From NCBI RefSeq assembly GCF_020171365.1, contig NZ_JAIUZO010000002.1, positions 1,761,001-1,825,000 of the forward strand: a stretch of 64,000 nucleotides of DNA. The letters are read 5' to 3'. Under the pieces are notes generated by a model. That model searched no databases, had not been told where the DNA came from, and saw only the letters and a program-made list of their open reading frames with translations. Origin of the DNA: Qipengyuania gaetbuli (GTDB taxonomy: Bacteria > Pseudomonadota > Alphaproteobacteria > Sphingomonadales > Sphingomonadaceae). The translations under genes and the position numbers were made by a program. How positions within the stretch are numbered: position 1 is the first letter of the stretch; each line of letters opens with the position of its first letter. Of this stretch, positions 4,150 through 41,326 are shown in pieces.

Positions 4150-4152
4150 GGC

Positions 4153-13659: not shown

Positions 13660-13668
13660 GCAGTGAAA

Positions 13669-13682
13669 TGGCGGAGACGGAG
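13669..13682. repeat. Left attachment repeat (tRNA-Ser 3'-end fragment)
   Basis: TGGCGGAGACGGAG is identical over 14 bp to the CCA end and acceptor/T-stem side of tRNA-Ser(GCT) at 41313-41326, in the same orientation. The match stops at base 15. No tRNA body is attached here, as expected for the distal attachment site. Confidence 0.85.
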
Positions 13683-13706
13683 TCCGATCTGATTTTGATC
13701 TAACAT

Positions 13707-13718
13707 CTTGATATCAAG
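13707..13718. promoter_or_regulatory. Palindrome CTTGATATCAAG upstream of fnrL
   Basis: A perfect 12-bp palindrome made of two FNR half-sites (TTGAT/ATCAA) joined without the usual 4-nt spacer, 48 nt upstream of the longest fnrL start and inside the element end. The spacing is wrong for a normal FNR dimer, so a regulatory role is uncertain. No gene is seen between 13683 and 13912. Confidence 0.25.
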
Positions 13719-13743
13719 AAACTATAGATGTCGCGAAATGAAC

Positions 13744-13766
13744 CAGACCCACACCTAGACCCACAC
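13744..13766. repeat. Left integrase arm repeat
   Basis: Two tandem copies of AGACCCACA separated by a CT-containing spacer. The 23-bp block matches the one at 41177-41199 with a single difference and the same orientation. Its position just inside each attachment core fits arm-type binding sites of a tyrosine integrase. Confidence 0.7.
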
Positions 13767-13912
13767 TTTCGAATGGATGCAAGCGAACTCCTGCGCCAGA
13801 AAAACTTAGGGCTACTTGGGGCCCAGCGCCAGAGTATCGCGATTGGTGCAAGGCATCCAAATGGCTGCATCCAGTCGGATATCTGATTCACCCCTGACGT
13901 TGGGCCGCGTCA

Positions 13913-14167
13913 CTATGCCTTCGAAGCCCGATAGCGGGCGTCGATCACTTCACAATCCAGGTTTGCCATGAACGCGTCGATGATGTGCATAGCTGCTGTG
14001 CCGAAGTTCATGTGATAGGAGAGGAGAGGTCGTTCATAGCTAGCGCAATCAGCGGCGTTCCCGTCATCGCGCCATGCATGTGATCCTATGTCGAGTAATT
14101 GTGGAGCGATCGCGTGTGTGCGTTTATGGTCAGCACGCACCAGCCAGCGCCGCTCCCGCGCCACCAA
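13913..14167 (-). CDS. Hypothetical short ORF at element end
   Basis: 84 codons with no recognised family. The C-terminal half (AMHIIDAFMANLDCEVIDA) has a natural amino-acid mix, whereas the N-terminal part is Arg-rich. There is no clear ribosome-binding site. It may be a remnant of an older gene in the left junction or not coding at all. The following 14168-14323 stretch is AT-richer than the surroundings and holds nothing recognisable. Confidence 0.25.
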   Translation of the reverse strand: MVARERRWLVRADHKRTHAIAPQLLDIGSHAWRDDGNAADCASYERPLLSYHMNFGTAAMHIIDAFMANLDCEVIDARYRASKA

Positions 14168-14323
14168 CCGCCGCCGGTCCCATAGCCTCGCGTCTGGTTA
14201 GATTGCTCATCATGGCAGACTCCCCACTTCACTCAATCAACAGCAGAATGGGCCAATCTAATAATTTAAAGAATAACTCGTATCTGTGTCATTGTCTCGG
14301 ATCAAAACAAATGCGATCCCGTC

Positions 14324-14935
14324 TCAATTCTCAAGGAAATCAACCTTCCCGCTGTCGAGATGATAGAAGGCACCGACCACTTTGAGTGAGCCCTGGCGTT
14401 GCGGTGCTAGTAAGGCCGGTGAAGCTTCCTCTCGCAGCTCTCTGACCACGCGCCGGACATTGCTGATCGCGGCGGCGTCGACGATGTGATCTGCCCAGGG
14501 ATCTGTCTCAAGCACGGCTGGGAGCAGCGATTGCAAAACCTTGGAAATGTTTCCTGAGAAGGTGGCCTTACCCCGCGCGAGGGACACCGCGGCGTTGATT
14601 GCGCCGCAGGCTTCGTGCCCCATCACCACGATGAGCGGCACCTTGAGGTTCGTGACCGCGAATTCGAGGCTACCGAGTGCCGTCGTGCACAGCGTGTTGC
14701 CTGCGTTGCGGATAATGAAAAGCTCGCCAAGCCCACGTTCAAAGAGAAGCTCTGGCGGAACGCGCGAATCGGAGCAGCTCAGATAGGCCGCGAAGGGGCG
14801 CTGCGCCGCCGCAAGCTCGAGCCGCCGCATGCGATCCATGGTCGGCTCATAAGTCGTATCGTCGAGAAAACGCCGATTGCCTTCTTTCAAAAGTTCAAGA
14901 GCTTGATCGGGTGTAAGTTGAGGTACCTCTTCCAC
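14324..14935 (-). CDS. Beta-carbonic anhydrase
   Basis: 203-aa zinc enzyme interconverting CO2 and bicarbonate. Zinc ligands and the catalytic dyad are intact: C54-S-D56-S-R58 and H107-x2-C110 (GHEACGA). No signal peptide is present, so it is cytoplasmic. Its stop lies close to the AT-rich element end. It is probably in one transcript with the membrane protein upstream (50 nt gap), under the FNR box at 15492. Its role next to nitrate-respiration genes is not obvious; pH or bicarbonate supply during anaerobic growth is a guess. Confidence 0.93.
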   Translation of the reverse strand: MEEVPQLTPDQALELLKEGNRRFLDDTTYEPTMDRMRRLELAAAQRPFAAYLSCSDSRVPPELLFERGLGELFIIRNAGNTLCTTALGSLEFAVTNLKVPLIVVMGHEACGAINAAVSLARGKATFSGNISKVLQSLLPAVLETDPWADHIVDAAAISNVRRVVRELREEASPALLAPQRQGSLKVVGAFYHLDSGKVDFLEN

Positions 14936-14985
14936 TTGGTCTCATCATCCTTCGGTTCTCGCTGACGGCTCTTGAGCCATCCCGT

Positions 14986-15456
14986 TCAGAGTATTCCGTG
15001 GGCGCCGGCCATTGCACCAAGCGTCGTCAACAGGGCGGCAATGGAAAGGGCCTGATGCACCCGAACCATCAAGCGAAAATCGCGTTCGGGTGTTTGCGAG
15101 TGCGCCATCCGTCGGTGCAAAAACAGCGGTTCGGCAATGAACAGCATCACAAAGAACGCCAGCCACAGGGCAAGCATCGCATGCATCCACCAGTAACCCT
15201 GCTCGGCAAAACGCCCCCACATGTCGCCGCGCCACGTCATCCAGAACCCGGAGGCGCCAGCCAGCAGAACCCACGCCTTGGCATGTGCGGAAAAGCCCTG
15301 CTCTATGCGGTGAAAGGCCTGCAACCGGTTCTCAGGCGCTTCGGTCTTCCGTATGGCCGGCATCACCACGAATGTGACGAACCAGACGCCGCCGATCCAG
15401 CCGACAATGGAGACGACATGCAGCACGCGAGCAATGGTGAAGTCGTCGAAGATCAT
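14986..15456 (-). CDS. Small four-helix membrane protein, CopD-like
   Basis: 156 aa with four predicted membrane helices (about 8-32, 60-75, 88-110 and 130-152). Conserved-looking His residues near helix ends (VLHVVSIVGWIGG, WWMHAML, RVHQALS) are of the kind that bind heme or copper in the CopD superfamily. The start ATG at 15454-15456 has AGAAGG 7 nt upstream. An FNR box centred 42 nt upstream suggests anaerobic expression. Proteins like this often lie beside denitrification genes, but no precise function is assigned. Confidence 0.7.
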   Translation of the reverse strand: MIFDDFTIARVLHVVSIVGWIGGVWFVTFVVMPAIRKTEAPENRLQAFHRIEQGFSAHAKAWVLLAGASGFWMTWRGDMWGRFAEQGYWWMHAMLALWLAFFVMLFIAEPLFLHRRMAHSQTPERDFRLMVRVHQALSIAALLTTLGAMAGAHGIL

Positions 15457-15491
15457 GGTCTTGCCTTCTAGCTGTTATCGCCTGCACAACT

Positions 15492-15505
15492 TTGATCAGC
15501 ATCAA
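15492..15505. promoter_or_regulatory. FNR box TTGAT-CAGC-ATCAA
   Basis: A perfect match to the FNR/FnrL consensus with extra flanking symmetry (TTTGAT...ATCAAA). It lies in the 82-nt spacer between the divergent CopD-like gene (start 15456) and porin gene (start 15539), nearly centred. It could serve both directions. The likely readers are FnrL (12877-13659) or the element's own Crp/Fnr protein (16750-17445). Confidence 0.8.
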
Positions 15506-15538
15506 ATACATCTCGGCTTGCGAGTCTATTCGGGCGAT

Positions 15539-16753
15539 ATGAAAACACACCTTCTCAGCCTTACGGCTGCTTCGCTGGCGATACTTTCGCCGACCGCCGC
15601 CTTCGCAGATGACGGCAATGACCTGCCGATCGACCCCTATCTGGATTTGAGGTACCGGCTCGAAGTAGTCGATCAGGCGAATCTGCCGCAAGATGCCACC
15701 GCTTCGACACTCAGGATCAGGGGCGGGGTCGAGACCGACGAGTGGAACGGTTTCAGCGCGCTGGTCGAAGGCGAGGCCGTGGTCCGGATCGGGCCAGAGG
15801 ATTTTAATGACACCACCAACGGGTTGGTCCAGTTCCCCGTCGTCGCCGATTCGTCCGACGTGTTGCTCAACCGCGCCTTCGTGCGATGGCGCCCTGATCC
15901 GGCGATCGAAGCGGTCGCCGGGCGGCAAAAGGTCAACCTCGACAATCAGCGCTGGATCGGTTCGGTCGACTGGCGCCAGAACGACCAGACATTCGACCTT
16001 GCACAGCTATCGGTGAAGCCCGTCGAAGGGGCATCGATCCAGTACTTCCATGCATGGCGGGTCAACCGGATCTTTGGGCCGGATTCCCCCAACGGAATCT
16101 GGCGGGACAACGATATCCATGCCCTCAACGCCAGCTACGCCATTCCGTCAGTGGGTACGGTTTCTGCCTATGGCTATTTCCTCGATATCCCCGATGCGCC
16201 CGCGGCCAGTTCGCAAACACTGGGTTTGCGCCTTGCGGGCTCGCAGCCGGTGAGCGGCAGTACGAAACTCCTCTACACTGCGGAATACGCGAACCAGCGC
16301 GATCTGGGGCCGAATCCGGGCAATTTTTCGCTCGACTACCTGCTGCTCGAGCCGGGGGTTTCGACCGGGGGTTTCACTGCCAAGGTCGGCTTTGAGCGTC
16401 TGGAAGGCAACGGATCGACCGGGCTGCAGACTCCATTGGCGACCTTGCACGCTTTCAACGGCTGGGCCGACAAGTTCCTCGCCACCCCACCAGACGGGCT
16501 GCGCGATTTCTATGGCGACGTGAGCTATCGTTTCGGCGACGGATCGCCTCTCAAGGGGTTGCTATTGCGCGGTATCGTGCACGATTTCGACGCTACCGAG
16601 ACGGACCTTGCTTACGGACGGGAAGTGAACCTGCTTGCGGTATTTCCGATAAGGAAGAACCTTACCGTTCTGGCGAAGTTTGCGCATTACGAAGCGGAAG
16701 GGTTCAGTGTCGATACCACAAAAGGATGGCTGCAAGTCCAGGTCAGTTTCTAG
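15539..16753 (+). CDS. Alginate-export-type outer-membrane porin of the nitrate element
   Basis: 404-aa outer-membrane barrel. The signal peptide ends at TAAFADDG. The family core GRQKVNLDNQRWIGSVDWRQ is followed by NDQTFD (about residues 129-156), typical of the alginate_exp/porin family. The C-terminus ...KGWLQVQVSF ends in Phe as outer-membrane proteins do. An earlier in-frame start at 15353 would overlap the divergent gene; the Met at 15539 directly precedes the signal peptide but has no Shine-Dalgarno, and the FNR box is centred 40 nt upstream. A role in nitrate or nitrite passage is inference from context. Confidence 0.8.
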   Translation: MKTHLLSLTAASLAILSPTAAFADDGNDLPIDPYLDLRYRLEVVDQANLPQDATASTLRIRGGVETDEWNGFSALVEGEAVVRIGPEDFNDTTNGLVQFPVVADSSDVLLNRAFVRWRPDPAIEAVAGRQKVNLDNQRWIGSVDWRQNDQTFDLAQLSVKPVEGASIQYFHAWRVNRIFGPDSPNGIWRDNDIHALNASYAIPSVGTVSAYGYFLDIPDAPAASSQTLGLRLAGSQPVSGSTKLLYTAEYANQRDLGPNPGNFSLDYLLLEPGVSTGGFTAKVGFERLEGNGSTGLQTPLATLHAFNGWADKFLATPPDGLRDFYGDVSYRFGDGSPLKGLLLRGIVHDFDATETDLAYGREVNLLAVFPIRKNLTVLAKFAHYEAEGFSVDTTKGWLQVQVSF

Positions 16754-17445
16754 CGCAGGTCAGGCGGAACCGGATCGGGCCGGGAATAGCGCTCAAGGCT
16801 TTCGCGGTCCTCGATCCTCACCTTTGAGCCATCAAGCGAGACGCCGTGTTTCCTGAGCGTACCGAAAGCACGGGAGAGGTTTTCGGGCGTCATGCCGAGC
16901 AGCGAGGCGAGCAGTCGCTTTTCACCCTTGAGCTCGAACTCCCACTGCCCGCCTTTCCGGGCGGATTTTTCAAGCAAGTGATTGCCTAACCGTTCGGCCG
17001 ACTGTCGCACCTTCATATCCGTTAGCGCGCGGACAAGATCGCGATAGCCATGTGCGAGCTCGTGCATGGTCGCCTGCATCAAGGCAGCATCATGCCGAAT
17101 GGATTCGCGCAAACCGGATGCAGGAACGAGCAGGATGCGCGATGATGCGAGCGTGCGTGCCGACATCAGATAGGGTGTATCGGTCACGACGGCGGCGAGA
17201 ATAAAGCTTTCGACGGGTTCCACGATCCGCATGGTCGTATCGCGCCCGGCGCCCTCCACAAACAGTTCCACCAGCCCATCGACAAGCACATGCAGGAAGT
17301 CCGCATCCTGCCCTTTCTCGAACAGCGTAAGCTGGGGAGGAAATACCTGGAGATAGGCCCCCGCAAGGATCGTATCGCGCTGCGCTTCGGCCATGTCCCG
17401 AAACAGCGGAAGCCGTGCGATTTCAGGCTTCTCTCCGATTCGCAT
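16750..17445 (-). CDS. Crp/Fnr-family regulator, possibly NO-responsive
   Basis: 231 aa: a cNMP-type beta-roll, a long dimer helix and a helix-turn-helix with SLLGMTPENLSRAF, where E-x-x-S-R again predicts FNR-type boxes. It contains no cysteine, so it cannot carry the FNR [4Fe-4S] cluster. That fits the Dnr/NarR subgroup that sense NO or nitrate/nitrite through heme or unknown means. The position between the porin and narK-narGHJI supports a pathway-specific activator role. An FNR box lies 48 nt upstream of its start, giving possible autoregulation or FnrL control. The subgroup assignment is inference. Confidence 0.8.
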   Translation of the reverse strand: MRIGEKPEIARLPLFRDMAEAQRDTILAGAYLQVFPPQLTLFEKGQDADFLHVLVDGLVELFVEGAGRDTTMRIVEPVESFILAAVVTDTPYLMSARTLASSRILLVPASGLRESIRHDAALMQATMHELAHGYRDLVRALTDMKVRQSAERLGNHLLEKSARKGGQWEFELKGEKRLLASLLGMTPENLSRAFGTLRKHGVSLDGSKVRIEDRESLERYSRPDPVPPDLR

Positions 17446-17492
17446 GATTGTCGCAGCTCCAGCTCGATGAATTCGCCAAGTTAGCCTTCAGA

Positions 17493-17506
17493 TTGATAAT
17501 TATCAA
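17493..17506. promoter_or_regulatory. FNR box TTGAT-AATT-ATCAA
   Basis: A fully palindromic FNR consensus site between the Crp/Fnr regulator (start 17445) and narK. Centred about 54 nt upstream of the regulator's ATG, it most likely controls that gene. Confidence 0.8.
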
Positions 17507-17585
17507 GAAGGTGCATGATCCATTTCGGTGACTCCATTGCGCCTCGTCATGCCGAGAGGAGATTGCCCGGGCCTCGTATTCCAAT

Positions 17586-17599
17586 TTGATCCTCGTCAA
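17586..17599. promoter_or_regulatory. FNR/Dnr-type box upstream of narK
   Basis: TTGAT-CCTC-GTCAA, one base off the FNR consensus and of the kind also read by Dnr/NarR proteins. Centred 70 nt upstream of the narK ATG at 17663. If it acts at -41.5, transcription would start near 17634, leaving room for the AGGA at 17651-17654 and arguing against the in-frame start at 17624. Confidence 0.75.
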
Positions 17600-17662
17600 A
17601 GAGCCTCGATGAGCCTCCCGTAATTGAGGTCCTGTCCGAAATACCAGATCAGGAACCATATC

Positions 17663-20410
17663 ATGCCAGGACAGGAAATCGCGACCAGCAGCGAACAGAA
17701 TCGGGCTCTAGGACTGAGCACATTCGCGTTCACGATCTGCTTCGCTGTCTGGACGATCTTCGCGATCGTCGGGATCGAAATCAAGGCCGAGCTGGGCCTC
17801 AGCGATACCCAGTTCGGACTGCTAGTCGGAACCCCGATTCTGACGGGGTCGTTGACCCGCCTGTTCCTCGGTATCTGGACTGACCAATATGGTGGTCGCA
17901 TCGTCTTCCCGATCACCATGCTCGCCTCGGCGGCATCGACATTCCTGCTTTCCTACACGGACAGCTATCTCATGATGCTGCTGGCGGCGTTGGGTCTTGG
18001 CTTGGCGGGTGGCGGCTTCGCCGTAGGCGTCGCCTATGTTTCCAAGTTCTACCCGCTTGAAAAGCAGGGCTCGGCTCTCGGTTTCTTCGGCATGGGCAAT
18101 GTCGGTGCGGCGGTGACCAAGTTTCTGGCGCCGTGGGTTATGGTGGCGATCGGCTGGCAGGGCGTGGCCCAGGTCTGGGCGGGAGCCTTGGCGATCGTAG
18201 CCGTCCTGTTCTACCTTTTTGCCAAGGACGATCCCGAGTTCGCGGCCCGCAAGACTAGCGGGGTGAAGGCAAAAGGCTTGCTCGAACAGCTCGAACCGCT
18301 CCGTAATGAGCAGGTGTGGCGTTTCTCGCTCTATTACTTCTTCGTCTTCGGAGCCTTCGTGGCGCTCGCGCTCTGGCTGCCCAATTACATGGTGGGACTC
18401 TACGGCATCGACGTGAAGCTGGCGGGTATGCTCGCTGCGACCTTCTCGCTCTCGGCCAGTGTGTTCCGCGCCTATGGAGGCGTGCTCTCGGATAAGTATG
18501 GCGCGCGCAAGATCATGTACGCCACCTTCGGCGTCTCGCTGATCTGCCTCTTCATGCTGTCCTATCCCGCGACCGATTACGTCATCCACGGGATCGAAGG
18601 CGACATCACGTTCTCGACCTCGATGAACTTGGTGCCTTTTGTCATCACTGTATTCGTGCTGGGCTTCTTCATGTCGCTCGGCAAGGCGGCGGTCTACAAG
18701 CACATTCCGGTCTACTATCCGGGCCACGTTGGATCGGTGGGCGGTCTCGTGGGCCTCGTCGGTGGGCTCGGCGGCTTTATTTTGCCGATCGTGTTCGGCG
18801 CGGTCAGTGACCTGACCGGCATCTGGACCAGCTGTTTCATGGTCCTGTTCGCCCTGGTCGGCATTGCGCTCGCATGGATGCATATCGCTATCCGGCAGAT
18901 GGAACAGAAGGCCAGCGGCATCGATATGCGCTCGCTTCCCGAATTCCCTGAAATGGCCGAGCTGCACGATGAGGAAAAGCAGGCCGTTGCTACGCCCAGC
19001 AAGGTGCTGACCGAGTGGAAGCCAGAGGATCCCGGTTTCTGGGAGCAAACGGGCGAGAAGATTGCTCGCCGCAATCTCTACATCTCGATCCCGGCGCTGC
19101 TGCTGGCGTTCTCGGTCTGGATGGTGTGGTCGATGGTGGTCGCGAAGCTGCCCTCGATAGGCTTCGACTACACCACCGATCAGCTGTTTTGGCTGGCGGC
19201 ATTGCCGGGCCTTTCGGGCGCGACCTTGCGGATCTTCTACAGCTTTGTCGTTCCGATATTCGGCGGGCGCCTGTGGACCACGATGTCGACCGCGTCGCTG
19301 CTGATCCCGGCATTCGGGATAGGCTATGCGGTCCAGAACCCGGATACGCCCTATGTCATCTTCCTGACTCTGGCGCTGCTGTGCGGCTTTGGTGGCGGCA
19401 ACTTCGCCTCCTCCATGTCCAACATAAGCTTCTTCTTCCCGAAGGCGCAGAAGGGCAATGCGCTCGCGCTTAACGCCGGACTCGGAAACCTGGGAGTTTC
19501 GGTGATGCAGTTCCTCGTTCCGTTGGTGATTGTCGCCAGCGTGTTCGGCGCGCTGGGCGGGGAGCCTCAGCAAACTGCCGAAGGCGGTCAGCTGTGGCTG
19601 CAGAATGCCGGCTTCATCTGGGTGCCGTTCATCATGGTGTCCACGCTGCTGGCATGGTTCGGGATGAATGACATCGCCGATGCAAAAGCCAGCTTCTCCG
19701 AACAGTCGGTGATCTTCCAGCGCAAGCACAACTGGCTGATGTGCTGGCTCTACACCGGCACATTCGGCAGCTTCATCGGTTTCTCCGCTGGCCTGCCGTT
19801 GCTCGCCAAGCACCAGTTCCCCGATGTGGATGTGCTGCAGTTCGTCTTCCTCGGGCCGCTTGTGGGGGCGCTCAGCCGTGCTGCGACGGGATGGGTGTCG
19901 GACAAGTGGGGCGGGGCTCGGGTAACCTTCTGGGTCTTTGTACTCATGATGCTGGGCGTGCTCGGGGTGGTGTACTTCCTCGAAGCGGCCAACTGGTGGG
20001 GCTTCCTTGGCGCTTTCATCTTCATGTTCTTCATGACCGGTGTTGGCAATGCATCGACCTTCCAGATGATCCCCAACATCATGCGCCAGGAAGTCCCGCG
20101 CCTGATGCCGGAACTCGATGCAACGGCCCGGGTTCGCCAGGCAGAGAAGGAATCCGCTGCGATCGTTGGCTTCACTTCGGCCATTGCCGCTTACGGGGCC
20201 TTCTTCATTCCGAAGAGCTTCGGTAGCGCGATTGCCGCCACCGGTTCGCCAATGGCGGCGCTGTGGGGCTTCTTCATCTTCTATTCCAGCTGTGCGGCAT
20301 TGACCTGGTGGGCCTACACCCGCCGCGGCGGCCTGCTGCACGACATCGAGCGCGGCCGGGCACCAGCCCCGGTTGAAACACTCGCTCAGATCAAGGGAGC
20401 AACCGCATGA
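17663..20410 (+). CDS. narK: Fused NarK1-NarK2 nitrate/nitrite transporter
   Basis: 915-aa inner-membrane protein made of two complete major-facilitator domains in tandem (about 1-430 and 470-900), about 24 helices. The first half should be the NarK1 nitrate/proton symporter and the second the NarK2 nitrate/nitrite antiporter, as in the Paracoccus fusion. Both halves have Gly-rich nitrate-signature helices, for example GGLVGLVGGLGGF and FGGGNFASSMSNISFFFP. The linker is cytoplasmic and acidic. Start 17663 is supported by AGGA 8 nt upstream and the box above. The stop overlaps the narG start (ATGA), so the five nar genes are one operon. Confidence 0.93.
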   Translation: MPGQEIATSSEQNRALGLSTFAFTICFAVWTIFAIVGIEIKAELGLSDTQFGLLVGTPILTGSLTRLFLGIWTDQYGGRIVFPITMLASAASTFLLSYTDSYLMMLLAALGLGLAGGGFAVGVAYVSKFYPLEKQGSALGFFGMGNVGAAVTKFLAPWVMVAIGWQGVAQVWAGALAIVAVLFYLFAKDDPEFAARKTSGVKAKGLLEQLEPLRNEQVWRFSLYYFFVFGAFVALALWLPNYMVGLYGIDVKLAGMLAATFSLSASVFRAYGGVLSDKYGARKIMYATFGVSLICLFMLSYPATDYVIHGIEGDITFSTSMNLVPFVITVFVLGFFMSLGKAAVYKHIPVYYPGHVGSVGGLVGLVGGLGGFILPIVFGAVSDLTGIWTSCFMVLFALVGIALAWMHIAIRQMEQKASGIDMRSLPEFPEMAELHDEEKQAVATPSKVLTEWKPEDPGFWEQTGEKIARRNLYISIPALLLAFSVWMVWSMVVAKLPSIGFDYTTDQLFWLAALPGLSGATLRIFYSFVVPIFGGRLWTTMSTASLLIPAFGIGYAVQNPDTPYVIFLTLALLCGFGGGNFASSMSNISFFFPKAQKGNALALNAGLGNLGVSVMQFLVPLVIVASVFGALGGEPQQTAEGGQLWLQNAGFIWVPFIMVSTLLAWFGMNDIADAKASFSEQSVIFQRKHNWLMCWLYTGTFGSFIGFSAGLPLLAKHQFPDVDVLQFVFLGPLVGALSRAATGWVSDKWGGARVTFWVFVLMMLGVLGVVYFLEAANWWGFLGAFIFMFFMTGVGNASTFQMIPNIMRQEVPRLMPELDATARVRQAEKESAAIVGFTSAIAAYGAFFIPKSFGSAIAATGSPMAALWGFFIFYSSCAALTWWAYTRRGGLLHDIERGRAPAPVETLAQIKGATA

Positions 20411-26374: not shown

Positions 26375-26377
26375 GCC

Positions 26378-28909: not shown

Positions 28910-28912
28910 CGC

Positions 28913-31363: not shown

Positions 31364-31393
31364 CCTTAGTTTGATGCCACTGGGAGCATAGCA

Positions 31394-32599: not shown

Positions 32600-32642
32600 G
32601 CGATCGCAGGGCCGACAGGAAGCACGCGCTCCTTCCCGGATA

Positions 32643-33224: not shown

Positions 33225-33232
33225 TGTGTCAG

Positions 33233-33826
33233 TCACGGGTAAAGCAGGTAGCGCTCCCAACGATCATTGTCTTGCTTTTCGAACAACACTCGCTTGTGCA
33301 ATCGGTATTCCCCTTCGGACCAGAATTCAAAGCGACGCGGTTCGATCCGGAACCCTGACCAGAACGGTGGACGCCCGGGGTCCTTCAGGGCGAAGGAAGA
33401 TGTGTATCGAGCGATACGAGCCAAAAGTTTCCCGCGGCTCTCAAGCGGGCTTGACTGCTTCGACGCCCATGCCCCGATCCTGCTGGCGAGCGGTCTTGAG
33501 GCGAAGTAGATGTCGGCTTCCTCATCGCTAACTGGCTGGACTGATCCCTCGATCCTGACCTGAAGGCTCAGTGGAGCCCAATAGAAACACAGGGCGGCAT
33601 GGGGATTGGCTGTCAGTTCACTCGCCTTGCGACTGCCGAGATTGGTGTAAATCACAAAGCCCGATGCGTCGTGCCCTTTGAGCAGGACCATGCGGTTCGA
33701 TGGCATGCCATCCTTGCTTGCCGTTGCGAGATTGGCCGCACTCGCATCGGCAATTTCAGGATGCCGGGACGCTTTTGCATACCACGATCCGAAGAGTGCA
33801 TGCGGATCGTCGGATAGTCCGTTCAT
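33233..33826 (-). CDS. pdxH: Pyridoxamine 5'-phosphate oxidase-like flavoprotein
   Basis: 197 aa matching PdxH layout: [17 protein letters not shown] (FMN), [32 protein letters not shown] and a C-terminal [11 protein letters not shown] region ending LLYP. PdxH oxidises pyridoxine or pyridoxamine phosphate to pyridoxal phosphate. In canonical PdxH the terminal motif reads RLHDR; here it is RLHKR, so substrate use may differ. It overlaps the acyl-CoA dehydrogenase by 4 nt. It is probably a second copy to a chromosomal pdxH, which is inference. Confidence 0.82.
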
Positions 33827-35085
33827 GAGCCTCTGCGATCTCGCCAGTCGGTCATGCGGTCCCTGAATTTCCCGAATTCCATTCGAGCAATAGATCGCAA
33901 GTGGACTTCATCGGGACCATCGGCAATCCGCAATGCGCGCATACCGGCATAGACTTCGGCCAAGCCGAAATCGTCAGAGAGACCGCCCGCCCCATGAGCT
34001 TGCATTGCGTGATCGAGAACGCGCAATGCCGTCCTCGGCGCAGCGACCTTGATCAGGGCGATCTCAAGCTTGGCCGCCTTGTTACCGGCCTTGTCCATCA
34101 TGTCGGCGGCCTTGAGGCAGAGAAGTCTGGTCATCTCGATATCAAGCCGCGCTTCACCCAGGCGTTGTTCCCATACCGACTGTTCGGACAGGTGCTTGCC
34201 GAAGGCGACCCGCGATTGAAGCCTCTCGGCCATCTTCTCGATAGCGCGCTCGGCGGCACCGATTGCGCGCATGCAATGATGAATGCGGCCGGGACCGAGC
34301 CTGCCTTGCGCGATCTCGAAGCCGCGACCCTCACCAAGGATGATATTGCTGGCAGGAACCCGGACATCGCGCAGCACCACTTCGCCATGTCCATGGGGAG
34401 CTCCGTCGTATCCGAAGACGGGCAGCATGCGCACGATCTCGATGCCGGGCGTGTCGAGCGGCACGAGGATCTGTGATTGCTGCTGGTGCGCGTTCGCGTC
34501 TGGGTCGGTCTTGCCCATGACAATCGCTAGCTTGCAGCGCGTATCGCCCACTCCGGACGACCACCATTTGCGCCCATTGATAACGTATTCATCACCCTCG
34601 CGGCGGATCGATGTCTCGATGTTGGTCGCATCGGAGGACGCAACATCGGGTTCGGTCATCAGGAAGGCAGAACGAATTTCTCCATCAAGCAGCGGTCGCA
34701 ACCATTGCGCCTTTTGCTCCGGCGTTCCGTAGCGGTGAAGCACCTCCATATTGCCGGTATCAGGTGCCGAACAGTTGAACGTTTCCGAAGCAAAGCCGAC
34801 CCGCCCCATTTCTTCTGCACACAACGCGTAGTCCAGATTGGAGAGCCCTGCTCCGCGATACGCCTCCTCATCATGCTCGGAAGGCGGCAGGAAGAGGTTC
34901 CAGAGCCCCTCGGAATAGGCGCGCGCCTTCAGTTCATCGATGATAGGTGGCACTTGCCAACGCTCGTCTCCGCATTCGCCCAGCTGGGATCGGTATACCT
35001 CTTCTGCACGATAGACATGCGCGTCCATGAAACTTCGCACGCGATCTCGCCAAAGGGTCTGATTATCGGAAAGGCTGAAATCCAT
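33823..35085 (-). CDS. Acyl-CoA dehydrogenase, ACAD10/11-like
   Basis: 420-aa flavin-dependent dehydrogenase. The flavin/substrate loop [16 protein letters not shown] is followed by [11 protein letters not shown], the W-W form typical of the long-chain ACAD10/11-like group. The C-terminal helices contain [13 protein letters not shown], where the group's catalytic acid region sits. First gene of a three-gene minus-strand unit with the pdxH-like gene and mobA, starting 66 nt from the FNR-type box at 35151. Why a beta-oxidation enzyme travels with nitrate respiration is unknown; use of acyl substrates under anoxia is a guess. Confidence 0.9.
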
Positions 35086-35150
35086 TGATCGGGTGCTCTG
35101 CGGAAGTGATTTTCGGAAGCACAGCGATACACTCAGATGGTCGATTTGAA

Positions 35151-35164
35151 TTGATCTTGGTCAA
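35151..35164. promoter_or_regulatory. FNR/Dnr-type box TTGAT-CTTG-GTCAA
   Basis: Same variant form as the narK box. It lies between the divergent acyl-CoA dehydrogenase (start 35085) and the bicupin (start 35200), so both could be switched on together with the nar genes. Centre-to-ATG distances are about 72 and 42 nt. Confidence 0.7.
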
Positions 35165-35199
35165 GGATCGATGGTCGAGTTTGCTTTCTAGTGATCGCT

Positions 35200-36048
35200 A
35201 TGGATCGTCGTGAGCATATCGAGTTTGTGCAGTCGCAATTGCTACCCTGGCAACGCATCGGTGCGGGGCTTGCGCGGCCGGATGCCGAATACAAGATGCT
35301 CAGCCGTGACCCTGAGGGTGGGACTTGCAGTGCATTGATGCGCTATCCTCCTGGCTGGTCGCGCATGGGGCCAGAGCATATCTTGGCAGACGAGGAATTC
35401 TTCGTTCTCGATGGATCACTGGAAATGGATGGCGAACTGTATGAACCGGACAGCTATGCCTTCCTGCCTGCCGGCTGGACCCGCACCAGCATGGCAAGCA
35501 AGAACGGCTGCGTCTTAATTGCATTCTACAATCGCGAACCCGTTCTCGTCGGAGACATGGGCGACTGCGACAAGCGGCGCGCCGTTCCCCACCTTAAGAC
35601 GCGGCAGATGTCATGGGACATGACGCTCAATGACCCCAATCTGCGCCATCTGGGAATCTCGCGAAAGGATCTGCGGACCGATCCGGAGACCGGCGAACGC
35701 ACTTTCCTTTCATTGATTCTCCCGCAGTCCGAACCGCCCGCTGGCAAGGGGCCGCAGGAAAGCCACCCGGTTGTGGAGGAATGTTACATGATTGCTGGCT
35801 CGCTAACAGGGCCGCCCGGCACGATGCATCCCGGCGCCTATTTCTGGAGACCGCCAACTATTCCCCACGGCCCTTACGGTTCCCGTTGGGGTGCGGTCTC
35901 GCTGATCCGTTTCGTGGGTGGCAAGCATGAAAATGTTTGGAGTGACGACCAAGCCGATTTCTCTTTCGACCAAGCCTACGATCCGATCCTTCCTGAGCGG
36001 TTGGAGTACCTGCGCGAATTCACCTGGGAAGGTCCGCTATCTTACTAG
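35200..36048 (+). CDS. Bicupin protein (DUF4437/ChrR-like)
   Basis: 282 aa with two cupin barrels (about 45-120 and 165-250). The first has RYPPGWSRMGPEHILADEEF and the second HPVVEECYMIAGSLTGPPGT with GAYFWRPPTIPHGPYG, giving His/Glu side chains suited to one metal. The function is unknown; relatives include anti-sigma ChrR sensor domains and small dioxygenase-like proteins. The ATG at 35200 is preferred over a GTG at 35191 because the upstream box would place transcription start at the ATG. No Shine-Dalgarno is visible. Confidence 0.75.
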   Translation: MDRREHIEFVQSQLLPWQRIGAGLARPDAEYKMLSRDPEGGTCSALMRYPPGWSRMGPEHILADEEFFVLDGSLEMDGELYEPDSYAFLPAGWTRTSMASKNGCVLIAFYNREPVLVGDMGDCDKRRAVPHLKTRQMSWDMTLNDPNLRHLGISRKDLRTDPETGERTFLSLILPQSEPPAGKGPQESHPVVEECYMIAGSLTGPPGTMHPGAYFWRPPTIPHGPYGSRWGAVSLIRFVGGKHENVWSDDQADFSFDQAYDPILPERLEYLREFTWEGPLSY

Positions 36049-36201
36049 AACATAGCCTCGACTCTCAGTTTCAAAAATGGTGAAGGTTATCGCCCGCGGG
36101 GACTGAATGATGCCAGATCACTTTATTGAACAGCACTGGCAAATGTGGTGCCGAGCACGTCTAGGAATGCGCGATGGTCATGGTGACGGGCCGCATCCAA
36201 T

Positions 36202-36221
36202 AAAACCGCTGGACCGGTTTT
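36202..36221. terminator. Short hairpin, possible bidirectional terminator
   Basis: AAAACCG-CTGGAC-CGGTTTT forms a 7-bp stem with A- and T-runs at its outer edges, 154 nt after the bicupin stop. It is weak because the A-T pairs are part of the stem. Confidence 0.35.
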
Positions 36222-36340
36222 GAAGGGCAGACTTGCAACGACTGCGAGATCATCGCAGAACAAGTCGATTTCCTCGCCAAGGCGAAGGTAACTGGCGTTA
36301 CCAAGACCGGTTGTCGAATCCGCGATCAGACGCTCTCAAA

Positions 36341-36373
36341 GGTCTCGCTGGCACGATCCAGCGGGGCCTTTTT
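36341..36373 (+). terminator. Strong Rho-independent terminator
   Basis: GGTCTCGCTGG and CCAGCGGGGCC form an 11-bp stem with two G-T pairs around the loop CACGAT, followed by TTTTT; AAA precedes it. It lies 290 nt beyond the bicupin stop in a stretch (36049-36712) where no convincing protein gene is seen. It may therefore end the bicupin transcript or a separate short RNA. Confidence 0.65.
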
Positions 36374-36593
36374 CCATGCACGGGTATGGCCTTTGACCCT
36401 TTCGCTTCTGCGCCGCGGAGGCGCAGAAATCCTTTAGGTAAGGCTGCCAAGCGCGCTGAGCACAAAATGGTCCAACGACTGGTTACGGGCCTGGAAAATG
36501 GGAAATTTGATTGCACACCGTACCCGGAACTCCGGTGTTTGGGATACGAGCATTTCTGCGGGCTTCGCCGGCATTTCGGTGTCTGTCGCCACC

Positions 36594-36721
36594 TAATGTC
36601 ATTTGATGTCAGTTTGGGAGTCGCAACTCGCTTACGAGTTGCCTGTCGGTAAGCGCCTAATTTTAAATCAGAAAATAGCGTTTTCCTACAGGGTTGCCGC
36701 TGCCGTAAACTGATGTCAATT
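36594..36721. other. Candidate origin of transfer (oriT)
   Basis: Directly upstream of the mobilization genes. It contains a perfect 8-bp inverted repeat GCAACTCG-CTTA-CGAGTTGC (36623-36642) and three copies of the direct repeat TRATGTCANTT (36594-36604, 36604-36614, 36711-36721), the last covering the start of the accessory gene. MobF relaxases act at such hairpins next to the nick site, and accessory proteins bind direct repeats nearby. The nick site itself cannot be read off. Confidence 0.5.
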
Positions 36722-37075
36722 CAGAGGGGTCATCGGGCCGGCGGGGGCGGCCAAACGTCAGGTGACGCCGTGCGGTTTGCCCTCCAATGCTATGTCGACG
36801 AAGACCTCCATGCCCTCGTGAAAGCGGCTGCTGATGCAGCGCATATGAGCGTCAGCCAGTGGCTGAAACTCACCGTGATCGAGGCGCTGGACGAACCTCA
36901 GGATGAGGCGTTCCGCGATCAGGTTCTGGCCGATCTGCTGTTCACCAAGATCGCGCTCGATGGCTGGCTTCGCACCCACAAGGACAAGGAACTGCGCGAC
37001 CGCGTGGTGATAGCCTACCAACGACGCATCCGGGAGTATCGCGAACGCAAAGCCTTCAAGCCCGAGGGGCGCTGA
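36713..37075 (+). CDS. Small mobilization accessory protein
   Basis: 120 aa. The segment VRFALQCYVDEDLHALVKAAADAAHMSVSQWLKLTVIEAL (about 21-60) reads as a ribbon-helix-helix-like DNA-binding fold, that is a beta strand, then two helices with SVSQWLK. A charged helical C-terminus follows. It sits 3 nt upstream of the relaxase and just after the candidate oriT repeats, the usual place for a relaxosome accessory protein (TrwA/TraY-like role). The family call is from pattern and context only. Confidence 0.65.
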   Translation: MSIQRGHRAGGGGQTSGDAVRFALQCYVDEDLHALVKAAADAAHMSVSQWLKLTVIEALDEPQDEAFRDQVLADLLFTKIALDGWLRTHKDKELRDRVVIAYQRRIREYRERKAFKPEGR

Positions 37076-37078
37076 GCG

Positions 37079-40018
37079 ATGTTGTCGGTGGCCAATGTGC
37101 GTTCGGCTGGCGGGGCTGCCAACTACTTCGCCAAGGACAATTACTATACCAAGGCAGACGCCGATCGATCGGGTATCTGGGTTGGGAAAGGAGCCGAACG
37201 GCTAGGTCTTTCCGGCACGGTCGACGCCAAGGCGTTCGAGGCCATCCTGCGCGGCGAGTTGCCCACTGGCGAGCGCATCGGGCACGAAGCTCAGTATCAC
37301 CGGGCAGGCACGGACCTGACCTTTTCTCTGCCCAAGAGCTGGTCGCTCCTGGCACTCGTCGGCAAGGATCAGCGGATCATCGACGCCTACCGGTCAGCGG
37401 TTGTCGAAACGCTCCAGTGGGCGGAGAACAACGCCGCGCAGTACCGTATCGAAAAGGGCGGGAAAGATCGGCTGCATACCAGCGACAACCTGACTGTTGC
37501 TCTGTACCAGCACGACACCAACCGCAATCAGGAACCGAACCTGCACTTCCACGCGGTCGTCGCCAACATGACGCAGGACAAGGACGGGAAGTGGAGGGCG
37601 CTACGCAATGACAAGCTGTGGCAGCGCAACACGTTGCTCAATGCAATGACCATGGCGCGCTTCCGGATCGAGGTCGAGAAACTTGGCTACCGGATCGGTG
37701 AACTCGGAAAGCACGGAAACTTCGAGGCCAAGGGCATCGACCGGGATGCGGTGATGGCCTTTTCCACGCGGCGGCAGGAGGTGCTCGAAGCGCGGCGTGG
37801 CGGTGGCCTCGAGGCGGGTTTGGTGGCGACGCTGGCGACCCGCGAGGCCAAGCAAAGCGATGTCGATCGCGGTGCCTTGATGGCCCAATGGGAAGGACAG
37901 GCTTGGGAGCAGGGGCTCGACCTCGATGGCATGGTGCGCGCTGCCAGGCTGCGCACGCATGAACTCACGGTAGCGGCTGCAAAGCGGGCGAATGATCGCT
38001 TCAGCTTGCTCGAAAGGGGCAAGGCCATGATTGCCAGCCTCGCCGAGCGAATGGGCATCAAGGAGGGGGATCCGCTCATACCCAGGCGACTGCATCTGAA
38101 AAGCCGCGAAGAGATCGCAACCGCCCATGCGGTCGCATCGGCGGTGCGGCACCTTTCTGAGCGAGAGGCGGCCTTTACCGCTACCGATTTAGCCAAGGCC
38201 GCGCTCGATTTTGGCCTGCCGACGACGATGAATTTAGTCGAGAAGCGTATTGGCCAACTCGCCCAGCAGGGCGCGCTGATGCGCGGGCGAGGCGTGCAGA
38301 AAGGGTGGCTGACAACATCCAATGCATTGGCGCTAGAGACCCGCATGCTGGCGGAGATCGAGAAGGGAAAAGGCGTAGTTCATCCGATCCTCGACGCGAA
38401 GACCGCTGGACAGTTCCTGCAAGCTTCGGCAGCCATCAATTACGGGATGAAACTCAACTTCGGTCAGGAAGCGGCGGGCCGGTTGATCCTGTCTTCAAAC
38501 AATCGCGTCGTAGCCGTTCAGGGTGTTGCAGGGGCGGGCAAATCGAGCGTGCTACGGCCGGTCAACCAGCTTCTGGAAGAACAAGGCAAGAGGGTCGTTG
38601 GCTTGGGTGTCCAGAACACCTTGGTCCGTATGCTGGAGAAGGACACCGGCATTCCATCGATCACATTGCATCGCTTTCTCGGTGGGCATCGAAGGCTGCT
38701 GGATGGCTCCGCTGGCAAAGCAGAGATCGCCGCTGCGCGCGAAGAGTATCTCGACACTGTCCTTGTTCTCGATGAGGCGTCGATGGTCTCCACGCGTGAC
38801 CAGGATCGCCTAATCCGCATCGCCAATCTGCTGCAGGTCGATCGCCTTGTGCTGATGGGCGACGAGAAGCAATTGGGTGCCGTCGAAGCGGGCAAGCCCT
38901 TTGCATTGGCGCAGCGTGTCGGGACAGACACGGCGCGCATGGACCACAATCTTCGCGCCCGTTCTGACACCCTTAAGAAGGCACAACATGCAGCACAGCA
39001 GGGCAAGACCAATGAAGCCCTCGAGCATCTCAAGAATCACATTGTCGAGGTGCAGGAGGACAGCGCGATAGATGCGGCAGAACGGTGGCTGTCGCTGCCG
39101 TCAGCAGAGCGCGAGCGTACATCGATCTTTGCGACGGGCCGTCGTTTGCGCTCGGAGATCAACGAGGCCGTACAAACCGGACTCGCCGCTAATGGCGAGA
39201 TCGGACCAGCAAGAACGAGACTGTCCGTTCTTTCGCGCGTGAATGCAACCCGCGAGGAGTTACGCTACGCACGCAATTATCAAACCGGCATGGTGCTCGA
39301 AGCGGCGAGCCGACAATCGCGGCACGGTTTAGGGCGTGGCAGCCACGAGGTGATGGCTGTCGACATTGGCAAGGGCGTGGTCACGCTTCGCGACGAGCGG
39401 GGCCGTTTGCAGAGGTTCATCCCGTCAAAGCTATCCGCCAGGGGCAGCGACCAATTGCTGCAGCTGTTCGAGAAGAAAGAACTCGACCTTTATACAGGGG
39501 ACGCAATCCGGTGGACGGCGAGCGACCATCAGCGCGGCATGACAAACGCGGATCGCGCAACGGTAACCGCAATCGATAGAGGCGTGGTGACGGTCACGAC
39601 CTCCAGCGGCATGGAGCATAGACTGAAGAAGAACGACCCGATGTTGAAGCGGATCGACCTCGCCTACGCGCTCAACGCCCACATGGCGCAGGGTCTAACA
39701 GCAGATAAAGGCATCGCCGTACTCGACAGCCGCGAGCGGCGACTGCTTTCGCAGCGCAACTTCCTCGTCACGATTACGCGGGTGCGAGACGAGCTTAAAC
39801 TGATCGTCGACAGCCGGGAAAAGGTCGGGCGAGGTATTTCCGCCAATCTGGGTGAGAAATCTTCTGCAGCGGAAGTAACCGAGCGGCTTGGGCAGGCGGC
39901 GGCAAAAGGCGTCCGCGCGGCCCACGTCCAAGCAATTAAACATGCACCACAGGCCGAGCGCGAGAAGGCACCTGAGTTGGCGAAGGAAAGAGCGAAGCCC
40001 TTTGACTTCGGCATCTAA
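37079..40018 (+). CDS. MobF-family relaxase/helicase (TrwC/TraI-like)
   Basis: 979 aa. The N-terminal relaxase domain has candidate catalytic tyrosines Y16, Y22 and Y23 and the metal-binding His triad H145, H156 and H158 (PNLHFHAV). The second half is a RecD-like superfamily 1 helicase: Walker A GVAGAGKSSVL (about 480-490), Walker B LVLDEASM (about 560), LMGDEKQLGAVEAG, and motif VI-like YALNAHMAQGLT. It nicks oriT and unwinds the transferred strand. It is shorter than F TraI but complete. It converges with the integrase, the two stops overlapping by 4 nt. Confidence 0.93.
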   Translation: MLSVANVRSAGGAANYFAKDNYYTKADADRSGIWVGKGAERLGLSGTVDAKAFEAILRGELPTGERIGHEAQYHRAGTDLTFSLPKSWSLLALVGKDQRIIDAYRSAVVETLQWAENNAAQYRIEKGGKDRLHTSDNLTVALYQHDTNRNQEPNLHFHAVVANMTQDKDGKWRALRNDKLWQRNTLLNAMTMARFRIEVEKLGYRIGELGKHGNFEAKGIDRDAVMAFSTRRQEVLEARRGGGLEAGLVATLATREAKQSDVDRGALMAQWEGQAWEQGLDLDGMVRAARLRTHELTVAAAKRANDRFSLLERGKAMIASLAERMGIKEGDPLIPRRLHLKSREEIATAHAVASAVRHLSEREAAFTATDLAKAALDFGLPTTMNLVEKRIGQLAQQGALMRGRGVQKGWLTTSNALALETRMLAEIEKGKGVVHPILDAKTAGQFLQASAAINYGMKLNFGQEAAGRLILSSNNRVVAVQGVAGAGKSSVLRPVNQLLEEQGKRVVGLGVQNTLVRMLEKDTGIPSITLHRFLGGHRRLLDGSAGKAEIAAAREEYLDTVLVLDEASMVSTRDQDRLIRIANLLQVDRLVLMGDEKQLGAVEAGKPFALAQRVGTDTARMDHNLRARSDTLKKAQHAAQQGKTNEALEHLKNHIVEVQEDSAIDAAERWLSLPSAERERTSIFATGRRLRSEINEAVQTGLAANGEIGPARTRLSVLSRVNATREELRYARNYQTGMVLEAASRQSRHGLGRGSHEVMAVDIGKGVVTLRDERGRLQRFIPSKLSARGSDQLLQLFEKKELDLYTGDAIRWTASDHQRGMTNADRATVTAIDRGVVTVTTSSGMEHRLKKNDPMLKRIDLAYALNAHMAQGLTADKGIAVLDSRERRLLSQRNFLVTITRVRDELKLIVDSREKVGRGISANLGEKSSAAEVTERLGQAAAKGVRAAHVQAIKHAPQAEREKAPELAKERAKPFDFGI

Positions 40019-41163
40019 CCGCTCAGGCAAAAATCTGCCCAATCGGCCATCAGCGGCCTGCGTTTATCGAGATAATCCGTGCGCCGATAGGCCGCTTCGA
40101 CCTTGTTGGCGATCGTGTGGGCAAGCGCTGCCTCTGCGACTTCACCCGGATAGTTCGTCTTTTCGGCGACCCAGTCGCGAAAGGACGAGCGAAAACCGTG
40201 AACCGTGTAATCGTCGCCCTTGTCGCGCAGGATTTTGAGCAAGGTCATATCTGACAAGTGTCGACGAGGATTCTGGCCCGGAAAGACTAGAGTGCTCACA
40301 GGGGAGCGAAAGGCTTTCGCTCGCTTGAGGACGTCCATGGCCGCTTCCGACAGCGGGACGACGTGGATGGTTCCTGCCTTCATGCGTTCGGCAGGGATGT
40401 TCCAGAGCTTCTTCCTGAGGTCGATCTCGTTCCAGCACGCACCGCGCACTTCGCCGGAGCGAGAGGCGTTCAGGATCACGAACTCCAGGGCAAGACGGCC
40501 AACCGAGGAGCGCCCGCGCAGCCATGTAATGAAAGCGGGTAGGTCAGGATAAGGCATTGCTGCGAAGTGGCTTTGCTTCTTGGGCTGGCGCGGCAAGCCA
40601 CGGAGTACCGAGCGCATCGGAGCCTCGGTCTCACGAAAGCCCTTTGCGCAGGCCCAATCGAGCACCGACCCGATTCGTTGCCGTACTCGCCTCGCAGTCT
40701 CGGGCTTGGTCAGCCAGATTGGCGAAAGCGCATCGCGGATTGCCGGCCCTTCAATTTCTGAAACGAGTTTGTCGCCGAGAGTCGGAAAGGCATAGGTTTC
40801 GAGAGTCTTGATCCATTGGGCCTGATGCTTGCCGTTCTTCCACGCGGCCTTGTGCTCGTCATGAACGAGCTTGGCGGCGTCGCTGAAAGTGGGGATGACC
40901 AAGGCTTCCTTTTTGCGCTCTGCCAAGACGTCGACGCCCGCCTTTACCTCCTTGCGGAGGGCCCGCGCGGCCTCGCGAGCATCGGCTAGCGGCAGCTCGG
41001 AAAGAGGACCTAAACCGATGTCTCGGCGCTTCCCATTGGCCTGAACCCGGACAATCCAGCTGCCTTTACCCTTTGCAGCGAGTTTGAGGATCAAACCCTC
41101 GCCATCTGAATAGCGGCCAGGTTCAACCAGATTCTTGACCCTCATCGCCGTCAGCTTGCCCAT
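40015..41163 (-). CDS. int: P4-type tyrosine integrase
   Basis: 382 aa. An N-terminal DUF4102-type arm-binding domain (GRYSDGEGLILKL, about 14-80) precedes a core-binding SAM-like domain (about 95-190) and the catalytic domain. Active-site residues seen: R235 (ASRSGEVR), H322-x2-R325 (HGFRSSFRD), H349 and Y359 (EAAYRRTDYLDKRR). It should recombine the 14-bp tRNA core at 41313-41326 with that at 13669-13682. Arm repeats at 41177-41199 lie 13 nt upstream of its start, so the enzyme may repress its own promoter. Confidence 0.95.
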   Translation of the reverse strand: MGKLTAMRVKNLVEPGRYSDGEGLILKLAAKGKGSWIVRVQANGKRRDIGLGPLSELPLADAREAARALRKEVKAGVDVLAERKKEALVIPTFSDAAKLVHDEHKAAWKNGKHQAQWIKTLETYAFPTLGDKLVSEIEGPAIRDALSPIWLTKPETARRVRQRIGSVLDWACAKGFRETEAPMRSVLRGLPRQPKKQSHFAAMPYPDLPAFITWLRGRSSVGRLALEFVILNASRSGEVRGACWNEIDLRKKLWNIPAERMKAGTIHVVPLSEAAMDVLKRAKAFRSPVSTLVFPGQNPRRHLSDMTLLKILRDKGDDYTVHGFRSSFRDWVAEKTNYPGEVAEAALAHTIANKVEAAYRRTDYLDKRRPLMADWADFCLSG

Positions 41164-41176
41164 TGCTTGTTCCTTT

Positions 41177-41199
41177 CAGACCCACATCTAGACCCACAC
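41177..41199. repeat. Right integrase arm repeat
   Basis: Tandem AGACCCACA copies, 22 of 23 bases identical to the left block at 13744-13766 and in the same orientation. It lies between the integrase start and the tRNA attachment core, where arm sites and the int promoter usually overlap. Confidence 0.7.
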
Positions 41200-41312
41200 G
41201 CTGCGCCGGATGAATAGGAACATATAGAGAACTAAGCGGACGACGAAAAGCGAAAAAACGCCGCATTTCTGCGGGTTTGGGGACTATAAGGGATTGATTG
41301 GGAAAAGCGAGG

Positions 41313-41326
41313 TGGCGGAGACGGAG
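41313..41326. repeat. Right attachment repeat inside tRNA-Ser
   Basis: TGGCGGAGACGGAG, the last 14 bases of the tRNA gene read on the plus strand, duplicated at 13669-13682. This is the attachment core that keeps the tRNA functional after integration. Confidence 0.85.

Follow-up and report, generated by a model that had tools for sequence, protein, structure and literature searches.

A nar operon between two copies of a tRNA-Ser end

We analyzed 64,000 nucleotides of the Qipengyuania gaetbuli genome (contig NZ_JAIUZO010000002.1, positions 1,761,001 to 1,825,000; the whole stretch is hereafter the window), in which a nitrate reductase (nar) operon and mobility genes share an element of about 27.64 kb next to a tRNA-Ser(GCT) gene. 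The tRNA gene is intact (41313–41404, minus strand), and its last 14 nucleotides (41313–41326) are duplicated at 13669–13682 (plus strand), so that the tRNA end holds one attachment (att) core and the distal copy marks the left boundary of the element. This core, TGGCGGAGACGGAG, occurs twice in the window, and with up to one mismatch allowed there is no third match (0.07 expected from shuffled sequence). Just inside the ends lies a 22-bp arm-type repeat, AGACCCACANCNAGACCCACAC, whose left copy (13745–13766) comprises two AGACCCACA units and whose right copy is at 41178–41199, both on the plus strand; the pattern was composed from repeats detected beforehand in the window, and at up to two mismatches it matches at these two places only (0.00 expected). 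The G+C content is 59.4% within the element versus 63.3% and 65.9% in its flanks. An earlier, sequence-only reading of this DNA had described both pairs of repeats, and both are confirmed.

Adjoining the tRNA 3′ end is a gene for a 382-aa tyrosine integrase (40015–41163, minus strand) that combines arm-binding (Arm-DNA-bind_3, PF13356), central (Phage_int_M) and catalytic (Phage_integrase) domains in one protein, an architecture that we take to be the one named P4-type. Beside it, a 979-aa relaxase-helicase of the MobF (TrwC) type is encoded on the plus strand (37079–40018); it exceeds the curated cut-offs of the TrwC/MobF models (250.9 bits against the MobF model, cut-off 100), with PF08751 at residues 10–275 followed by the helicase domain AAA_30 at 459–654. 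The domain content thus agrees with the adjacent integrase and MobF relaxase of the sequence-only reading. Upstream, a 120-aa protein with no family match (36713–37075, plus strand) is by its position a probable relaxosome accessory, preceded by a candidate origin of transfer (oriT; 36513–36712, plus strand). The latter is mostly non-coding, has conserved counterparts in three relatives, and contains an inverted repeat at 36623–36642; its start was fixed by the end of a contig in genome G046.

No type IV secretion component was found among the larger open reading frames (ORFs) of the element scanned with family profiles. The locus therefore combines its own integrase and att repeats with its own relaxase and no type IV secretion system, which are the marks of an integrative and mobilizable element (IME) as defined, in the available part of the source, by PMC5704250. 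A VirB4-type gene is present in 6/6 genomes tested, the host included. A strong TrwB-type coupling protein was seen in G018 alone of 7 genomes, VirD4-type proteins of other families not having been tested.

The cargo centers on a series of plus-strand genes, with identities taken from Pfam and NCBIfam profiles. Among them is narK/narU (17624–20410), encoding a 928-aa major facilitator superfamily transporter, presumably for nitrate/nitrite, that matches PF07690 in three stretches; its length suggests a fused transporter pair. There follow narG for the catalytic subunit (20407–24144; 1245 aa, of which residues 1–1235 align with Escherichia coli NarG, 1q16_A), narH for the Fe-S subunit (24141–25670, by family profile), the narJ chaperone gene (PF02613; ORF listed as 25586–26374, its true start probably near the narH stop) and narI for the cytochrome b quinol-oxidising subunit (26378–27079, aligning with 1q16_C), here an allele that we call class A. 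The NarG and NarI alignments to the E. coli structures are nearly full-length, and NarG motifs around the residues that we take to be Fe-S and molybdenum ligands align with those of E. coli NarG; the set of NarG, NarH, NarJ and NarI is complete. On the same strand come genes for a PpiC-type peptidyl-prolyl isomerase (27072–27884; PF00639), which stands where Sphingopyxis granuli TFA has nifM, and for molybdenum cofactor synthesis: moaA (27881–28909; PF04055 and PF06463), a moaD-like gene (28913–29173; 86 aa, named by its position and Gly-Gly C-terminus, without a profile), moaE (29170–29670; PF02391), a moaB/mog-like gene (29646–30182; PF00994) and moeA (30134–31363; PF03453, PF00994 and PF03454). 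The plus-strand series ends with nnrS (31394–32599; PF05940), and a mobA-like nucleoside triphosphate transferase, presumably also serving the molybdenum cofactor, lies on the minus strand (32643–33260; PF12804).

Upstream of narK/narU and on the minus strand is a Crp/Fnr-type regulator gene, FtrB-like by its score against NF006901 (16750–17445; 283.6 bits, cut-off 211). Fnr-like boxes, defined as TTGAT-N4-ATCAA with at most one mismatch, number five in the window against 1.31 expected, and four of them fall inside the element, all given here on the plus strand: a perfect box at 15492–15505 upstream of a probable outer-membrane protein gene, two in the gap between the regulator and narK (17493–17599; perfect at 17493, one mismatch at 17586), and one with a single mismatch at 35151–35164. 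Every component listed by the sequence-only reading, from the nitrate transporter, NarGHI and NarJ to the cofactor genes, NnrS, regulator and promoter boxes, could be recovered in this way. Its statement that almost everything in the unit serves one function is roughly right, the exceptions being a Pro_CA-family carbonic anhydrase (14324–14935, minus; PF00484), a small protein with a CopD match below the curated cut-off (14986–15456, minus), a PNPOx-like flavoprotein (33233–33826, minus; PF01243), an acyl-CoA dehydrogenase family protein (33823–35085, minus) and a ChrR-type cupin protein (35191–36048, plus; PF12973). The outer-membrane protein (15539–16753, plus) shows a weak Alginate_exp match, and its likely start, at a signal-peptide-like stretch, is 15539 in an ORF that opens at 15353. 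Carbonic anhydrase, dehydrogenase, PNPOx-like and cupin genes adjoin nar clusters in some relatives as well. Within 32643–36048, the dehydrogenase, PNPOx-like and cupin genes are a set that accompanies nar in several relatives, and the window copy has its Fnr-like box in the dehydrogenase–cupin gap.

The tRNA-Ser site and the mobile backbone in relatives

Using the tRNA plus the flank to its right as query, we searched 60 genomes of the genus, among them that of the window (G000); 57 of its 59 relatives yielded the site (G047 and G052 did not), and 56 loci could be oriented. Two of these, in G013 and G018, are unoccupied, with an fnrL-like gene directly beside the tRNA. When the window's flanks are joined at a single core, they align through core and tRNA in both genomes, with gaps of 1–8 nt between the gene start and the core; the empty site joining 13682 to 41327, which the sequence-only reading had set as its own test, thus exists in 2/56 loci. 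The close relative G011 is syntenic with window positions 1–13660 at 94.7% identity. There, eight bases short of the core, the homology stops, which supports the left boundary independently of the repeats, and a different stretch of 38.7 kb precedes the tRNA. Some 31 kb of that insert (L032, L093 and L094) form an island that has a core copy of its own and a distant integrase (29%); about 7.8 kb more DNA make up the rest. G010 is just as close on the right flank; its two flanks fall on separate contigs and are uninformative. Inserts of other kinds, about 4 and 8 kb long, separate fnrL from the tRNA in G003 and G029. Over the 1.5 kb beside the tRNA, the 56 genomes fall into 37 groups (loci linked by BLAST matches above 300 bp), which fits a busy integration site, sequence divergence alone being expected to split some of these groups.

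In one of the 56 loci, that of G030, another and distant species of the genus, the same element sits at the same tRNA-Ser with the same arm repeats. A single collinear alignment spans it and begins exactly at 13669, which places the left boundary without reliance on the repeats. Identity along this alignment, counted column by column, is uneven: 99.84% over 13669–21168 (12 differences), 89.9% over 21169–25668, 71.1% over 25669–27168 (narJ–narI), 97.8% over 27169–32168, 89.3% over 32169–36168, 96.8% over 36169–38668, 90.0% over 38669–39668 and 99.57% over the last 1.64 kb (39669–41312). Beyond the element, the tRNA is 88.0% identical, and the better-supported ORFs of the right flank are about 67–93% identical as proteins, in a list that also includes wrong-frame ORFs. 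The left neighbour in G030 has no similarity to that of the window, and the best G030 match to the window's fnrL region is distant, at 741 kb. None of the 56 oriented loci, whose sequence extends no more than about 18.5 kb to the left of the tRNA, matched an empty site with G030's left neighbour. Because the ends of the two copies are nearly identical while the tRNA and flanks are so much less alike, the element has moved between species as one unit. Because the copies are mosaic, with 12 differences in the left 7.5 kb and 71% identity in narJ–narI, recombination has acted besides transfer. The profile fits an element that moved recently and whose middle has recombined; it does not fit vertical descent. 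The single-event transfer of the sequence-only reading therefore holds insofar as the unit, inserted with exact ends as the G030 alignment and the empty sites confirm, moved between species; it needs amending for the mosaic copies and for the different island that G011 has between the same flanks.

The same backbone carries other genes elsewhere. Relaxase matches of at least 83% over most of the protein occur in 4/60 genus genomes (the window's, G030, G044 and G046), and in G044 and G046 the same tRNA hosts the relaxase (83–87%) and integrase (90–93%), surrounded and separated by other genes. Among named genomes, 12 of 16 loci have a relaxase 83–88% identical to the window's: Qipengyuania sp. 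XHP0207 (G044), an Erythrobacter metagenome-assembled genome (G046), four Croceicoccus, Blastomonas marina, Erythrobacter longus and four environmental assemblies. In 7/12 loci an integrase (65–93% identical) and the same core are within reach, six of them adjoining tRNA-Ser(GCT), and no nar gene was found in the available stretch of any of the 12. Across 397 family genomes, the mobilization module (at least 80% DNA identity over most of its length) is present in eight, of which only G000 and G030 have a substantial narGH match.

Scans of chosen larger ORFs from seven sister elements gave clear phage-defence matches in five: Thoeris ThsA/ThsB with a type IIG enzyme, QatA/QatC, type I restriction, type IIG, and OloA/OloB. 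ThsA/ThsB and QatA/QatC sit between relaxase and integrase; the type I restriction, type IIG (two elements) and OloA/OloB genes lie beside the relaxase in elements whose ends are not fixed, and are likely inside the IME. The other two, L231 and L236, had weak or partial defence matches only; they are related IMEs lying in tandem in Croceicoccus gelatinilyticus (NZ_JAHCBF010000012.1), with an internal core between them and tRNA-Ser at the end. In the G044 sister (L063, 2752–16816), a chromate transporter accompanies ThsA and ThsB between relaxase and integrase, and the type IIG gene and a single-stranded DNA-binding protein (SSB) gene lie upstream of the candidate oriT. In the G046 sister (L060 / L237), the relaxase is in two pieces, with one TAA stop inside, and the Qat genes are between relaxase and integrase. 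That the same kind of backbone bears phage-defence genes in some elements and a respiratory module in others shows how an IME family can carry very different traits.

The genus has narG in 11/60 genomes, nine of them at other places, so nar does not generally travel on this element there. We read 33–40 kb around the nine genus loci and 23–40 kb around ten family loci. The nine hold nar clusters of the same kind, those of G051, G039 and G049 being more distant and rearranged, and no relaxase or integrase related to the element's lies within 33–40 kb of them, unrelated mobility genes not having been sought. At two of the ten family loci (G279 and G292) an integrase of 50–51% identity is nearby. 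Given that clusters of the same kind stand at other places in relatives, the cargo is a sphingomonad nar cluster that this IME acquired.

An element in motion or at rest, and what its cargo could do

Taken together, these observations make it very probable that the locus is an IME of about 27.64 kb in tRNA-Ser(GCT) that carries nitrate-respiration genes and has moved between species. Its integrase would recombine the core at the tRNA 3′ end with the core on a circular form, restoring the tRNA, and its relaxase, with the 120-aa accessory protein and the nearby candidate oriT, would permit transfer through the type IV secretion system of another element. Once in place, the cargo is predicted to let quinol oxidation drive nitrate reduction to nitrite when oxygen is low, with Fnr-type and FtrB-type regulators turning its genes on.

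Several findings weigh against this reading or narrow it. The candidate oriT has a folding z-score of −1.64, and 14/200 shuffled sequences fold equally well or better; the host's TrwB-type coupling protein amounts to two short matches barely above the Pfam cut-off. Given such weak matches, one has to suppose a helper plasmid or a different coupling protein. The comparisons show past transfer only, neither a circular form nor present transfer being observable. Within the genus, the nar version of the element is found in one other genome among 60 (G030), and the two copies are 94% identical overall, with the 71% stretch. UbiU/UbiV (PF01136, Peptidase_U32) was found in 0/18 genus genomes, all 11 with narG among them, by a search that gave matches in 8/14 known control genomes. 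NirK above cut-off was found in 0/6 genomes, five of them with weak matches, NirS and NirBD not having been searched in genomes.

The last two results bear on physiology. Oxygen-independent ubiquinone synthesis needs UbiU/UbiV, which none of the 18 genus genomes yielded, so that lasting growth without oxygen is in doubt; with no NirK above cut-off in any of the six genomes, so is the removal of nitrite. The element itself has no nitrite reductase among its scanned ORFs and is thus not a complete denitrification island. It brings the enzyme, a transporter, chaperones and the larger part of the cofactor pathway, and profile scans of its ORFs did not find moaC, a gene present on the chromosome in 6/6 genomes tested, from which the host would supply MoaC. 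With moaC only on the chromosome and PF01136 in 0/18 genomes, the element is no self-sufficient package for anaerobic growth, and the claim that with it a strictly aerobic sphingomonad would become a nitrate respirer in a single step is not supported as it stands and calls for softer wording. Instead of full anaerobic growth, we would expect nitrate to be reduced to nitrite, perhaps chiefly when oxygen is low. In favor of the predicted function, a cluster of this kind is tied to anaerobic growth on nitrate in Sphingopyxis granuli TFA, and a narG mutant cannot grow anaerobically, according to the available parts of two papers (PMC4741004, PMC7713065). The lack of UbiU/UbiV matches prompts the question of what a nar module does in hosts that can probably not make ubiquinone anaerobically; our guess is that they reduce nitrate for short periods or under micro-oxic conditions.

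Of the alternatives, the one that survives best differs in present activity only: the IME arrived as described and is now fixed, no longer excising or being mobilized. The absence of type IV secretion components from its scanned ORFs, the weak coupling-protein matches in the host and the interrupted relaxase of the G046 sister are in keeping with such a fate, but in the window every mobility part, from integrase, relaxase and accessory gene to arms and cores, is intact, and the near-perfect agreement of both ends with those in G030 speaks for recent movement, so that we hold fixation to be possible yet unlikely. Less probable still, and in our view a poor bet, is that the nar cargo entered apart from the IME backbone, by homologous recombination between islands already at tRNA-Ser. 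Such an entry could account for the strongly mosaic identity (71% to 99.8%) and for sister IMEs with 83–88% relaxase identity that carry other genes; it sits badly with extreme ends, both arms and left cargo genes that are near-identical in G000 and G030, and with one same-order alignment over the whole element. An ordinary resident nar locus with chance repeats beside a tRNA, for which one might cite the nine genus genomes whose clusters lack these mobility genes in the stretch read, can be dismissed given the exact G030 boundary, the end of left homology in G011, the empty sites and the negligible expectation of either repeat by chance. We also considered a plasmid origin and rejected it: the best matches in a plasmid collection are just 44.0% (relaxase) and 78.5% (NarG) identical, and so these two proteins as queries turned up no plasmid form.

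Exchange of narI and kinship with known systems

The low identity in narJ–narI is one instance of a wider pattern. Of 36 nar operons extracted, 35 entered the comparison, one row being too short. Over all pairs, the correlation of identities is 0.96 for NarG–NarH and 0.76 for NarG–NarI. NarG and NarI identities are 99.9% and 60.7% for G223/G376, 97.9% and 69.1% for G000/G030, and 94.5% and 72.5% for G040/G015, while NarI is kept at 95–100% in the close pairs G041/G005, G208/G145, G051/G049 and G000/G011. DNA identity drops sharply at or inside narI and recovers after it, the low stretch between G000 and G030 including narJ. Approximately unbiased tests on NarI reject sisterhood for G000+G030 (p 4e-52) and G040+G015 (p 2e-50) but not for G223+G376 (p 0.161; long branch). 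On the NarG tree, the 17 rows given a class require at least five changes of narI class, the classes having been named after inspection of the data. The narH–narI segment of G030 resembles G040 (89–97% DNA identity per window of comparison), whereas the neighbouring ppiC does not (57–71%). Deeply different narI alleles have thus been swapped repeatedly in operons with 94–100% identical NarG (window 26378–27079; L167–L206, L111–L126). It is a tentative and rather doubtful proposal of ours that a lineage of phage-defence IMEs took on a respiratory module and shuttles it between species, its copies swapping parts, chiefly narI, with resident nar clusters, so that narI would act as an exchangeable cassette within an operon conserved in its other genes. 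If so, the quinol side of nitrate reductase would be under selection for variety, for example to fit the membrane of a new host or to evade inhibitors of the quinone site.

The cargo resembles the TFA cluster, which has a divergent ftrB, narUGHJI, nifM (a PpiC gene in the window), moa genes, moeA and Fnr boxes upstream of narU; unlike the window, TFA has moaC in the operon and ubiTUV beside it, and the parts of the papers at hand do not describe it as a tRNA-integrated IME (PMC4741004, PMC7713065). The nitrate respiration conjugative element (NCE) of Thermus thermophilus is a 30-kb island with nar genes, transporters and its own regulators, studied in a formerly aerobic host that received it; unlike the window's element, it resides on the pTT27 megaplasmid, reached the aerobic host by transformation in that study, and has the regulators DnrS/DnrT and the nrc NADH dehydrogenase, a tRNA-targeting integrase and MobF relaxase not being described in the available text (PMC5748679). 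On the side of the vehicle, the MobF IMEs of Mesorhizobium also have an alphaproteobacterial host and in many cases a tRNA site, tRNA-Ser included; most differ from our element by a Ti-like traACD locus, and nar cargo is not mentioned in the part of the paper available (PMC8627217). Integrative and conjugative elements and IMEs of Vibrio europaeus (PMC12824646) and restriction-modification IMEs (PMC5704250) share the pairing of integrase and relaxase, common sites and exchangeable cargo, and carry defence genes, qatABCD included, as do the sisters of the window element; their hosts and backbones are other ones, and no nar cargo is described in the accessible portions.

A 2017 review, in the portion available, knew no MobF relaxase among canonical IMEs of Proteobacteria or anywhere (PMC5704250), and a 2021 paper delineated 24 MobF IMEs in Mesorhizobium (PMC8627217). 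We accordingly do not present MobF IMEs as new in themselves, nor defence cargo on IMEs, which was already known (PMC5704250, PMC12824646). The narGHI genes of Alteromonas were set aside as a precedent, the paper on them concluding, in its available part, that there was no horizontal transfer. MobF IMEs and transferable nitrate islands are both known kinds; a published account of a nar-bearing IME in sphingomonads was not found in the open-licence PubMed Central literature.

Sphingomonads are usually regarded as aerobic, with nitrate respiration patchy among them. Now that the vehicle and its exact ends can be seen, together with its target and another host, transfer becomes testable. Vinyl chloride respiration in Dehalococcoides, a different phylum and enzyme, reportedly (by title) also lies on islands that are site-specifically mobilized. 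Finally, left of the window's fnrL-like gene (8207–12880), a lipoxygenase-family gene stands next to P450 and methyltransferase genes.

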